Positions 36,975 through 55,337 of a stretch of DNA of 64,000 nt are shown here, in pieces (within the stretch, counting starts at the first letter, position 1; the number at the start of each line of letters is the position of its first letter). The position numbers and the translations under genes were made by a program. The stretch is taken from positions 1 through 64,000 of the forward strand of contig NZ_BOMN01000013.1 in assembly GCF_016862215.1 (NCBI RefSeq). The letters run 5' to 3'. The stretch is from Winogradskya humida (lineage in GTDB: Bacteria > Actinomycetota > Actinomycetes > Mycobacteriales > Micromonosporaceae). Below the pieces are notes generated by a model, which worked only from the letters and a program-made list of their open reading frames with translations, did no database searches and had not been told where the DNA came from.

Positions 36975-37643
36975 GTGCGAACAGGGCGATGGGTGGCGGC
37001 AGGGTTGCTCGGTGTGGTGGCGGTTGCCGCGGGGATGACCCCCGCCTCAGCCTCCGAGCCGGTGGTGCTCCTGCCCCTCGGGGCGTCGATCACCCATGGG
37101 TACGGCTCGACGGACGGCAACGGCTACCGCGGTGTCCTCCATGAGCGGCTCACCCGCGAGGCCGGCCTCAGCGTCGACTTCGTCGGCTCGCAGCACTCCG
37201 GCACCGCCCCGGACCCCGACCACGAGGGGCATCCGGGCTGGCGCATCGACCAGATCGCGGCCCGCGCCGACGGCTGGCTGGCCACGTATCACCCCGACAT
37301 CGTGGTCATGCACCTCGGCACCAACGACATGATCCAGGACTACCGGTCGGCGACCGCCCCCGACCGCCTGGTCGCGCTCGCCGATCACATCGTGGCCGCC
37401 GACCCGGGCGTGACCGTCTATGTGTCGTCGCTGGTCTGCAGCTCCGTCCCGGCGGTGAACGCCCGCATCGACGCCTTCAACGCGCGGCTGCCCGCGCTGG
37501 TGGCCGGCCACTACGGCGTGGTCTACGTCGACCAGCACGCCGTGATGACCGCGGCGGATCTCAGCGACCAGGTCCACCCGACGAACGAGGGCTACCGCAG
37601 AATCGCCAACGCGTGGTACGACGCCATCGTCGCGCGCCGTTAA
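36975..37643 (+). CDS. Secreted SGNH/GDSL-type hydrolase
   Basis: An exported esterase/lipase-like enzyme of 222 aa. The signal peptide is short (RTGRWVAAGLLGVVAVAAGM, cleavage likely after ASA). The SGNH blocks are present: GASITHG with the catalytic Ser39, the Gly of block II, LGTND with its Asn, and DQVHPTNEG with the Asp/His pair. Cellulose- or xylan-associated acetyl esterases and rhamnogalacturonan esterases share this pattern, so a deacetylating role on polysaccharides is possible but unproven. The start at GTG 36975 is chosen because the signal peptide then begins normally. Its stop overlaps the stop of the transporter ATPase gene (shared TTAA). Confidence 0.85.
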   Translation: MRTGRWVAAGLLGVVAVAAGMTPASASEPVVLLPLGASITHGYGSTDGNGYRGVLHERLTREAGLSVDFVGSQHSGTAPDPDHEGHPGWRIDQIAARADGWLATYHPDIVVMHLGTNDMIQDYRSATAPDRLVALADHIVAADPGVTVYVSSLVCSSVPAVNARIDAFNARLPALVAGHYGVVYVDQHAVMTAADLSDQVHPTNEGYRRIANAWYDAIVARR

Positions 37644-38380
37644 GGGCGTACGGGGTGGAATCCGAAAGGGAGCTCCAGGCGGTGCGCGTGCAGGAGGGCC
37701 TCGTCCGCCAGGATCTCGGGGGTGGGGCCGTCGGCGACGATCCGGCCGCCGTCGAGGATCACCGAGCGCGAGCACAGCTGCATCGCGTACGGCAGGTCGT
37801 GCGTGACCATCAGCACGGTCACGGGCAGCGTCTGCAGGATCTCGGCGAGCTCGCGCCGGCTCGCGGGGTCCAGATTGGACGAGGGTTCGTCGAGGACCAG
37901 CAGGTCGGGCCGCATCGCCAGCACCGTGGCCACCGCGACGCGCCGGCGCTGGCCGAACGACAGGTGATGGGGCACCTGATCGCGGTGCGCGGCCATGCCG
38001 ACCGCTTCGAGGGCCTCGTCGACGCGGGCGGTGAGCTCGGCACCGCGTACGCCGAGATTGGCCGGGCCGAAAGCCACGTCCTCCGCGACCGTCGGCATGA
38101 AGAGCTGGTCGTCGGGGTCCTGGAAGACGATCCCGACCCGGCGGCGGATCTCGCTCAGCCGGGCCCGGTCCCGGCCGTCGACCCGCAACCCGCCGACGTC
38201 GACGCTGCCCGCGCCGCCGTGCAGGATGCCGTTGAGGTGCAGCACCAGGGTGGTCTTGCCGGCGCCGTTCGGGCCGAGCAGCGCCACCCGTTCACCCTCG
38301 GCGACGGACAGATCGACGCCGCGCAGCGCCACACTGCCGTCGGGGTAGGCGAACGTCAGCCCGCTGATCGACAGGCTCAC
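37640..38380 (-). CDS. ECF metal transporter ATPase (NikO/CbiO type)
   Basis: The ATP-hydrolysing subunit of an energy-coupling-factor transporter for nickel or cobalt. The 246-residue protein has Walker A (GPNGAGKTT), a Q-loop in VFQDPDDQLF (the form typical of CbiO/EcfA), the signature LSFGQRRRV and Walker B (LLVLDEPSS), followed by an H-loop in VTHDLPYAM. The GTG start at 38378-38380 overlaps the stop of the membrane subunit gene by 4 nt (GTGA). It is the last gene of the four-gene operon. Nickel specificity is inferred from the Nur-type box upstream of the operon. Confidence 0.92.
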   Translation of the reverse strand: MSLSISGLTFAYPDGSVALRGVDLSVAEGERVALLGPNGAGKTTLVLHLNGILHGGAGSVDVGGLRVDGRDRARLSEIRRRVGIVFQDPDDQLFMPTVAEDVAFGPANLGVRGAELTARVDEALEAVGMAAHRDQVPHHLSFGQRRRVAVATVLAMRPDLLVLDEPSSNLDPASRRELAEILQTLPVTVLMVTHDLPYAMQLCSRSVILDGGRIVADGPTPEILADEALLHAHRLELPFGFHPVRP

Positions 38381-39138
38381 CGCAGGACCGCTGTCATCGC
38401 GATGGCCGCGGCCGCCGCCGGGAGGACCGCCGACTGGGCCCACTGGGCGGCCGTCGCGCCGCCCGCCTCGGGCCGGGGCAGCCGCCCGTCATAACCACGC
38501 GACACCATCGCCAGGTAAACCCTTTCGCCGCGCTCGTACGCCCGCAGGAACAGCGATCCCACGCTGACCGCGAACGCCTTGACCTGCCACAGGAACCTAG
38601 GATCGTAGCCCCGTGACAGCCGCGCGATCCGCATCCGCCGCGCGTCGTCGGCGAGGATGTCGAGATAGCGCAGCATGAACGTCGCGATCTGGGTGAACAC
38701 CGCCGGGCAGCGCAGCCGGTCGAGCCCCACGATCAGGTCACGCATCGTGGTCGACGCCGCCAGCAGCAGCGACGCCACCACCCCGAGCGTGCCCTTCGCG
38801 ACGATGTTCCACGCGCCGTAGAGCCCGTCCACCGACAGCGACATCCCCAGCCAGCCGACCCGCTCGCCGTGCCCCGCGAACGGCAGGGCGACAGCCAGGA
38901 GCACAAACGGCAGCTCGATCGAGGCGCGCCTGGCCAGCCATTTCATGGGTACGCCCGCCGCGCCGGCAACCGCAGCCAGCAGCACCGCATACCCGCCGAA
39001 CGCCCACAGCTCCTCGCGCGGGGTCGCCACCACCACGACGGTGAACAGCAGCGTCGCGAGGATCTTCACCTCCGGCGCGAGCCGGTGCACGGGGCTGGGC
39101 CGGTCGAGATGCAGCGGGTGGGCGTGCCCGGCTCCCAC
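38377..39138 (-). CDS. ECF metal transporter transmembrane subunit (NikQ/CbiQ type)
   Basis: The 253-residue T-component that couples the ATPase to the metal-binding subunit. Several membrane helices are visible (KILATLLFTVVVVAT, LLAAVAGAAGVPM, LPFVLLAVALPFAG), and two cytoplasmic coupling motifs of the Ala-Arg-Gly type occur as IARLSRGYD and LAMVSRGYDG, which are typical of EcfT/CbiQ. The GTG start at 39136-39138 overlaps the stop of the preceding gene by 1 nt (TAGTG). The ATPase gene overlaps at the other end, so all three genes are translationally coupled. Confidence 0.9.
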   Translation of the reverse strand: MGAGHAHPLHLDRPSPVHRLAPEVKILATLLFTVVVVATPREELWAFGGYAVLLAAVAGAAGVPMKWLARRASIELPFVLLAVALPFAGHGERVGWLGMSLSVDGLYGAWNIVAKGTLGVVASLLLAASTTMRDLIVGLDRLRCPAVFTQIATFMLRYLDILADDARRMRIARLSRGYDPRFLWQVKAFAVSVGSLFLRAYERGERVYLAMVSRGYDGRLPRPEAGGATAAQWAQSAVLPAAAAAIAMTAVLR

Positions 39139-39494
39139 TAGCGGGTCGCTTCTTCGGGGGTCTTGCGCTTGCGGGCCAGCCAGAACACGCCGCCGCCGAT
39201 CCCGAACGTGATCAGCACCCCGAGGACGCCGGACAGGCCGGTCGACAGCCAGGCGTTGTCGATGCCCCGGATGCCGTACCCCGCGAGGGGGCTGTCGTCC
39301 ATCTGGTGCGCCTGCTCCTGCTGCAGCATGCAGGTGCCGCCGGTGATCTCGTCGTCGGCGTTGAACGTGCAGCCCTGCCGGGCCGTCGCGTCGAGCCCGT
39401 CCGGGCTGCCCGACGCGAAGTTGCTGACCACCCCGGCCAGCAGCAGCGCGACCAGCAGACCGCCGGCCAGGAACCATCCGAGTCGCTTACTCAT
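39138..39494 (-). CDS. PDGLE-domain accessory subunit of the metal transporter (NikN/CbiN-like)
   Basis: A 118-residue protein with an N-terminal membrane helix (GWFLAGGLLVALLLAGVV), the PDGLE-type motif SPDGLDATA just outside the membrane, and a second helix near the C-terminus (GVLGVLITFGIGGGVFWLA). CbiN/NikN proteins of this layout help load metal into the M subunit. Cys42 and Cys55 in the extracellular loop may form a disulfide. GGGAGG lies 6-7 nt before the ATG, a strong ribosome binding site. It lies between the M and Q subunit genes, as in nik/cbi operons. Confidence 0.85.
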   Translation of the reverse strand: MSKRLGWFLAGGLLVALLLAGVVSNFASGSPDGLDATARQGCTFNADDEITGGTCMLQQEQAHQMDDSPLAGYGIRGIDNAWLSTGLSGVLGVLITFGIGGGVFWLARKRKTPEEATR

Positions 39495-39579: not shown

Positions 39580-40284
39580 TCATGCCGCATCAGCCATCTC
39601 TGCGGCGGGAACGGTATTGCGGTAACGGCGCAGCGCGTAAACGAGGTCGGGGCGGACCCGGGCGACCGTGGCGACCGTGGTCGCGGCGATCACACCCTCA
39701 CCGAGGCCGATCAGCACGTGTACGCCGGCCATCGTCCCGGCGATCGTCGTCATGGACAGCTCGGTCGTGCCACCCAGCCAGTACTCGAGGACGAAGCCCT
39801 GCGACGCGACGACCACGCCGACCACCGAGGCGATGAACGCGGTCGCGCCCACCCCGCCCGGCGTCTTCGGCAGGAACCGCATCAGCGCGGCGACCAGCAG
39901 GTAGCCGGCGGCCGTACCGATCAGTGCCATGTTGGTGATGTTCAGACCCAGCGCGGTGAGCCCGCCGTCCGCGAACAGCAGGCACTGCACGATCAGCACG
40001 GTGGAGACGCAGAGCGCACCGACCCACGGCCCGACCAGGGCCACGGCGAGCGCGCCGCCGAGCAGGTGCCCCGAGACGCCCGGCAGCACCTGGAAGTTGA
40101 GCATCTGCACCGCGAAGATGAACGCGGCCACCAGCCCCGCCATCGGTGCCAGCCGGTCGTCGAGGTCGGCCCGGGCCCGCCACACGCAGAACGCGAGCGC
40201 CAGCACGGCGATGACGGCGAACAGTGCCGACACCGGCCCGTCCACGATCCCGTTGGCGATGTGCATCGCCTGAACGTCGTCCAT
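39580..40284 (-). CDS. ECF metal transporter substrate-binding subunit (NikM/CbiM type)
   Basis: The membrane subunit that binds the metal ion. It has about six membrane helices (for example VSALFAVIAVLALAFCVW and MAGLVAAFIFAVQMLNFQ), the loop GVSGHLLGGALA with its metal-ligand His, and ALGLNITNMALIG. In NikM/CbiM the metal is held by the N-terminal Met-His, and here MHIANGIVDG starts at residue 7. The ATG at 40284 has a strong ribosome binding site (GGGGAGG), whereas an ATG at 40264-40266 gives the functional MH terminus but lacks a good one. Either the short start is used or the first six residues are removed. It is the first gene of the operon, behind a Nur-type box. Confidence 0.9.
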   Translation of the reverse strand: MDDVQAMHIANGIVDGPVSALFAVIAVLALAFCVWRARADLDDRLAPMAGLVAAFIFAVQMLNFQVLPGVSGHLLGGALAVALVGPWVGALCVSTVLIVQCLLFADGGLTALGLNITNMALIGTAAGYLLVAALMRFLPKTPGGVGATAFIASVVGVVVASQGFVLEYWLGGTTELSMTTIAGTMAGVHVLIGLGEGVIAATTVATVARVRPDLVYALRRYRNTVPAAEMADAA

Positions 40285-40342
40285 CGATTCCTCCCCAGGA
40301 ACGCGCCACGGTCCATCGCAGCATATTGGCCAACGTGTGTAG

Positions 40343-40359
40343 TTGCACAGTATTGGCAA
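40343..40359. promoter_or_regulatory. Nur-type box before the metal transporter operon
   Basis: TTGCACAGTATTGGCAA has the form TTGC-N9-GCAA, matching the consensus (TTGCnn-N5-nnGCAA) known for Nur, the nickel-responsive Fur-family repressor of Streptomyces coelicolor. It lies 59 bp before the NikM-type start codon, where a repressor would block the promoter. A second copy with the same layout precedes the superoxide dismutase gene 15 kb away. Confidence 0.7.
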
Positions 40360-54663: not shown

Positions 54664-55290
54664 TCAGGGAGCAACGATGATCGGGTTGCCGGCCGCGCGG
54701 GCGGCGTCGAAGCGCTTGATGACGTCTGCCCAGTTGGCCAGGTCCCACAGGCGGTCGACGTAGTCCGGGCGCACGTTCTTGTACTGCAGGTAGTACGCGT
54801 GCTCCCAGGCGTCGAACGCCAGGATCGGGGTGGAGCCGTGGCCGACGTTGCCGTGGTGGTCGTAGACCTGCTCGACGATGAGGCGCTGCGACAACGGTTC
54901 CCAGGCGAGGATGCCCCAGCCGGAGCCCTGCACGCCCTTGGTCGCGGCGGACAGCTGCCCGGCGAACGCCTCGAACGATCCGAAGTGCTCGTCGATCGCG
55001 GCGGCCAGCTCGCCGTCGGGGCGGTCGCCGCCGTCGGGGGAGAGGTTGTTCCAGAAGATCGAGTGCAGGACGTGCCCGGAAAGGTTGAACGCGAGGGTCT
55101 TCTCCAGCCCGACGAGGGTGGTGAAGTCGCCCTTGTCGCGGGCCTCGGCGAGCTGGTCGAGGGTGTCGTTGCTGCCCTTGACGTACGCGGCGTGGTGCTT
55201 GGAGTGGTGCAGTTCGAGGATCTGCCCGCTCATGGCGGGCTCGAGTGCACCGTAGTCGTAGGGCATGTCGGGAAGCGTGTAGAGCGCCAT
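54664..55290 (-). CDS. sodF: Superoxide dismutase, Fe/Mn type
   Basis: A 208-residue cytoplasmic enzyme that disproportionates superoxide. The metal ligands are visible: His28 (ELHHSKHH), His76 (GHVLHSIFW) and the Asp/His pair in [29 protein letters not shown] matches mycobacterial SodA closely, which indicates an iron- or manganese-type enzyme rather than a nickel SOD. The ATG at 55288-55290 is preferred because AAGG lies 5 nt before it; an ATG four codons upstream lacks a ribosome binding site. A Nur-type box lies 31 bp before this start. In Streptomyces the iron SOD is repressed by nickel through Nur, and the same logic is likely here. Confidence 0.92.
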
Positions 55291-55320: not shown

Positions 55321-55337
55321 TTGCCAACAGTATGCAA
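55321..55337. promoter_or_regulatory. Nur-type box between sod and the zinc-finger gene
   Basis: TTGCCAACAGTATGCAA has the form TTGC-N9-GCAA, the same layout as the box before the metal transporter operon; the two share TTGCCAA at one end. On the minus strand it contains TTGGCA, a plausible -35 of the sod promoter, so a bound repressor would shut it off. The divergent zinc-finger gene starts 42 bp to the right and may also be affected. Confidence 0.7.

Follow-up and report, generated by a model that had tools for sequence, protein, structure and literature searches.

The window (the whole stretch of DNA analysed, 64,000 nucleotides) contains an ECF transporter operon and a superoxide dismutase gene, each preceded by an exact TTGC-N9-GCAA palindrome. 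The operon runs leftward in the order CbiM, PDGLE-domain N component, CbiQ and ATPase CbiO, with adjacent genes on the same strand, and the M, N, Q, O gene order is that of the NikMNQO/CbiMNQO group I ECF transporters. The features annotated in the window are listed below.

37640..38443, minus strand: cbiO/nikO, ECF ATPase; PF00005 and TIGR01166 above cut-off (start codon not fixed)
38377..39147, minus strand: cbiQ/nikQ, ECF transmembrane T component; PF02361 with E 4.5e-33, TIGR02454 above cut-off (searched stretch; start codon not fixed)
39138..39494, minus strand: N component, PDGLE domain; PF13190 with E 8.6e-30, sole Pfam match
39580..40284, minus strand: cbiM/nikM, ECF substrate-binding component; PF01891 with E 8.7e-54
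40320..40325, minus strand: TATGCT, -10-like hexamer 17 nt downstream of the cbiM box
40343..40359, minus strand: Nur-type box TTGCCAATACTGTGCAA (cbiM sense); exact match and conservation in relatives
54664..55290, minus strand: sodF, Fe/Mn superoxide dismutase; PF00081 and PF02777; start taken at MALYTLPD, with an in-frame ATG 12 nt upstream
55321..55337, minus strand: second Nur-type box TTGCATACTGTTGGCAA (sodF sense); exact match and conservation

The cbiM gene is the only PF01891 match in the genome (for the profile searches the CbiM query included two extra codons before the start), and no match to CbiN was found when the N component was compared with Pfam. Sequence is a poor guide to whether an ECF transporter carries nickel or cobalt. 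The names of the NCBIfam models matching the M and N components are mostly cobalt names, all below cut-off, and TIGR02454, matched by the T component above cut-off, carries the name of a cobalt transporter component; these names weigh against the nickel reading. The PDGLE domain was tried as a nickel marker and rejected: it fails to separate the metals, since the PDGLD motif after cbiM was also found by text match in 5/5 Nur-lacking loci examined. No cobalamin riboswitch was found in the window, and hence none at the ECF operon; all six found in the genome lie at other loci, two of them adjoining CobN- and chelatase-like genes.

The CbiM protein begins with a leader of six residues, MDDVQA, ahead of the metal-site Met-His, whose Met codon lies at 40264-40266 (leader and Met codon together span 40264-40284). 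The residue preceding the Met-His was observed to be alanine in 79/80 GTDB loci and serine in the remaining one, and alanine in 6/12 further loci that are more distant or of other kinds. The GTDB CbiM proteins have a short in-frame leader with its own start codon, often of 4-9 residues, before this alanine. PMC6828968 reports that substrate binding by M components involves their first two residues, so the short leader may be cleaved off after the alanine.

The cbiM box, TTGCACAGTATTGGCAA at positions 40343-40359, is an exact TTGC-N9-GCAA pattern match and lies where the earlier note had placed it. It ends 58 nt before the cbiM ATG at 40284. The claim that it matches the Nur box holds for the outer TTGC/GCAA, which agree with the Nur consensus tTGCaa-N5-ttGCAA as given in the available text of PMC3919588; the inner bases deviate (TTGCCA...GTGCAA), and they do likewise in relatives. 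A scan with the consensus sigma-70 promoter found no promoter at the cbiM box region, so the assignment of TATGCT as a -10-like element is grounded in conservation. The pattern TAN[GA]CT stands exactly 17 nt past the box in 30/46 exact-box GTDB cbiM upstream regions; in 5 the spacing differs, and 11 have no such element.

The second box precedes the sodF start codon by 30 nt and did not form part of the earlier note's finding. It is the strongest local evidence for the Nur reading.

Nur orthologue and nickel superoxide dismutases

Five Fur-family proteins were found in the genome, three of which were compared with solved structures. The first (L005) has 3MWM as its best structure, followed by the probable zinc regulator FurB; we take 3MWM to be the S. 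coelicolor Zur. The second (L007) showed no close match to the solved structures. The third (L006, C50) aligns best with 3EYY, gapless over 134 residues with an E-value of 4.7e-45, the next best structure being at 1e-22. According to a figure legend in PMC7055735, 3EYY is the S. coelicolor Nur. Nur is followed by a gene for a GCV_T-family protein, YgfZ-like by eye, and S. coelicolor nur likewise neighbours ygfZ according to PMC4531530. The Nur gene for which the earlier note had suggested searching the genome is accordingly present as a clear orthologue.

Histidines occur in this orthologue at positions 33, 70, 72, 88, 90 and 126, with aspartate at position 86. The nickel-site histidines of S. 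coelicolor Nur are presumably 70, 72 and 126, and those of its M-site 33, 86, 88 and 90. Among 30 Nur copies of the genus, this one counted, the 70/72 pair and His126 are present in 30/30, and position 86 is aspartate in 27 and histidine in 3. This loss of one of the four M-site histidines weighs against the proposed Nur switch.

The genome encodes two Ni-SODs (L010 and L011). No exact TTGC-N9-GCAA was observed in either of these 3.4-kb loci. The longest exact complementarity between sodF and the two sodN genes was 11 nt and 8 nt, and same-sense controls in this one genome gave 11 and 10. Because the complementarity is no longer than in the controls, the s-SodF RNA arm is probably absent here.

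Occurrence and conservation of the box

The bare motif was compared with chance at several scales. Two exact TTGC-N9-GCAA sites occur in the window, as against a mean of 0.24 and a largest count of 1 in 100 dinucleotide shuffles. Over the whole genome (11.1 Mb) the motif occurs at 60 places and the reversed pattern at 207; the genome density leads one to expect 0.35 sites per 64 kb and 0.0008 per 150-nt upstream region. Without genome-wide enrichment of the bare motif, a lone match is weak evidence. The search for further sites proposed by the earlier note brought up the second box before sodF. Of the 60 places, 50 were surveyed (49 viewed as loci, and the sodF site). A rough mechanical call put 35/49 sites inside open reading frames and 14 between genes, with even the cbiM site placed inside a reading frame. 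The cbiM box goes beyond chance by its placement, its sister box before sodF and its conservation; in 200 rounds of base-shuffled 150-nt upstream regions of 80 GTDB cbiM genes, the mean was 0.15 and the largest count 2, against 46 observed.

Two further sites were inspected individually. At L207 (G000:C29:25640-25656) two divergent genes, neither with a Pfam match, flank the box TTGCCACATTATGGCAA; homologues of one of these genes in 39 relatives number two, one with a one-mismatch box (L254) and one with none (L255). At L222 (G000:C56:28579-28595) an exact box lies upstream of a DUF4328 membrane protein, of which three homologues were found in two of the 39 relatives (G006 and G017), none with a box in the 500 nt preceding the match.

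A total of 37 cbiM copies were examined in the genus, leaving out the second copy of G006. An exact box was found within 300 nt upstream of 32 of them, a one-mismatch box in 2 and none in 3. Present in 33/36 genus genomes, cbiM has at least one boxed copy in each of the 33 (in G015 with one mismatch). All three boxless copies are second copies; identity is 76% for one of them and 51-52% for the other two. The latter two (L195 and L196), divergent second CbiM proteins in two members of the genus, may serve another metal or regulator.

In the GTDB set the exact box was found in 46/80 cbiM upstream regions and the reversed motif in 0/80. The genomes behind 78/80 loci were searched for Nur (L081 and L077, the latter a second copy in one genome, were left out), with matches at E <=1e-34 called Nur and those above 1e-19 called other Fur paralogues, the two groups being separated; in one part of the search the cut-off was 1e-22, and all matches there were at or below 4e-52. 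The exact cbiM box occurs in 45/48 Nur-bearing loci of the Micromonosporaceae type, in 0/6 Nur-bearing loci of the Pseudonocardiales type, a type assigned by reading genus names, and in 0/24 without detected Nur. A Micromonosporaceae bin with a one-mismatch box and no detected Nur (L098) was counted as Nur-lacking and without exact box. Within the same order outside the genus, the closest cbiM is preceded by an exact box in 3/4 Nur-bearing and 0/4 Nur-lacking genomes, and in the remaining Nur-bearing genome (G049) cbiM is preceded by no more than a doubtful one-mismatch match. Nur control of the cbiM transporter is thus not universal, as seen from G049 and from the Pseudonocardiales-type loci, all six of which are without an exact box. 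The GTDB cbiM loci that lack an exact box and either lack Nur or belong to the Pseudonocardiales type number 30; eleven of these were scanned for a cobalamin riboswitch at gathering thresholds, and none was found (0/11). The counts are not independent events because the genomes are related, and the GTDB and genus/order sets partly overlap, as some genomes seem to recur. One-mismatch boxes are weak, since the reversed motif at up to one mismatch matches as many as 12/80 of the 150-nt upstream regions.

Before cbiM the box accompanies Nur within the Micromonosporaceae type; before sodF it does so more widely. At up to one mismatch the sodF box was found in 12/12 Nur-bearing genomes vs 0/8 Nur-lacking ones (Fisher p 8e-6; genomes related), and as an exact box in 8/12 vs 0/8 (p 0.005; genomes related), the exact figure being the safer because one-mismatch reversed matches are frequent. 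Three fragmentary genes (L069, L070 and L071) were dropped from these counts and two with one internal TGA each (L050 and L059) were kept. Just 8/36 genus genomes yielded a full-length sodF. The Fe-SOD half of the proposed switch is therefore sporadic in the genus rather than general, unlike the boxed importer, which nearly all members carry.

A predicted nickel switch and its alternatives

We consider it highly probable, judging from the sequence comparisons, that the box is the site of the Nur orthologue, and that nickel-bound Nur represses the NikMNQO-type operon and sodF, from which a swap between Ni-SOD and Fe-SOD would follow. With plentiful nickel, which would act as the co-repressor, Nur would sit on the boxes over the promoters of the ECF operon and sodF, nickel uptake and Fe-SOD would be shut off, and the cell would depend on its Ni-SODs. 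Under nickel scarcity, Nur would be released, uptake would rise, and Fe-SOD would be made in place of Ni-SOD. The 3' half of the cbiM box would overlap the -35 region, and from this overlap Nur on the box would be expected to block RNA polymerase.

The assignment of the ECF operon to nickel is well supported at the level of sequence, and the suggestion of the earlier note that the regulatory site favours nickel is strengthened by the Nur orthologue, by the co-occurrence of box and Nur, and by the lack of a B12 riboswitch in the window. A nickel-sensing regulator is no proof that the transporter excludes cobalt. Nur might instead restrain a broad-specificity importer that carries cobalt or both metals, a reading that we regard as improbable though worth keeping in mind. 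The genome appears to need a cobalt route, as the CobN- and chelatase-like genes lie beside cobalamin riboswitches, yet it has a single CbiM, and no other cobalt route was identified (NiCoT, NikABCDE and Cbt transporters were outside the search). Against a cobalt transporter, the six riboswitches are all placed away from the ECF operon, and the box links this operon to the gene of a nickel-replaceable superoxide dismutase.

It is very unlikely that the box serves a different metal regulator, for example Zur, one of the other Fur paralogues or a SrnR/SrnQ pair of the ArsR type. The presence of five Fur-family proteins would allow it, and sodF of S. griseus is reported to be under SrnR/SrnQ in the available part of PMC7055735. 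The Nur-lacking genomes nevertheless speak against it, being without a sodF box in 8/8 and without an exact cbiM box in 24/24 GTDB and 4/4 order cases, and those checked still hold other Fur-family paralogues; the outer TTGC/GCAA also fits the consensus tTGCaa-N5-ttGCAA printed in PMC3919588. A chance palindrome would agree with the 60 genome occurrences below the reversed control and with the 35/49 sites roughly called inside reading frames, but chance would hardly keep a palindrome at promoter distance ahead of orthologous cbiM and sodF genes while its central bases diverge, and we give this explanation almost no weight. Binding by Nur remains the preferred reading, with nickel as the ion that the operon would transport.

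Comparison with known systems

Control of sodF by Nur is described in the available text of PMC3919588, PMC7055735 and PMC4531530, and the latter two also place nikABCDE under Nur. The S. coelicolor Nur regulon comprises Nur, sodF, nikABCDE and, indirectly, sodN, and both nickel uptake and Fe-SOD are already known as targets. Shared with S. coelicolor are the Nur orthologue, the nur-ygfZ neighbourhood, the outer bases of the box, a boxed sodF, the presence of Ni-SOD and a boxed nickel-type importer. This importer is an ECF M-N-Q-O operon here and nikABCDE in S. coelicolor, and, unlike in S. coelicolor, there are two sodN genes. The s-SodF RNA of Streptomyces rests on 16-19 nt of complementarity between sodF and sodN, a length that was not found here (longest 11 and 8 nt). 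The statement of the earlier note that Nur represses nikMNOQ in Streptomyces could not be confirmed, as the accessible parts of PMC4531530 and PMC7055735 name nikABCDE and sodF as the targets, and a literature search for 'nikMNOQ' returned only titles outside Streptomyces. No title on Nur control of this operon in Actinoplanes or its relatives stood among those listed from the literature searched, whose coverage leaves out most subscription journals.

In a 2009 survey of 40 actinobacteria, transporters of this kind were left unassigned in 13 organisms, with 2 assigned to cobalt and none to nickel in the available part of the source (PMC2667541). Compared with the Cbi/NikMNQO transporters surveyed there, the present one comes with an argument for nickel from its regulation, and a nickel assignment is of some value given those 13 organisms. 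A site that accompanies its regulator would allow the metal of many actinobacterial operons to be assigned in one step, and a swap between Ni-SOD and Fe-SOD is predicted in those Actinoplanes relatives that have sodF. To a wider reading we give about an even chance: a whole branch of actinobacterial Cbi/NikMNQO transporters, left without an assigned metal so far, would consist of nickel importers under a Nur switch, the sodF-bearing Micromonosporaceae would change from Ni-SOD to Fe-SOD without the s-SodF RNA, and the mycobacteria-like sister transporters, which are without Nur and box, would be controlled in another way.
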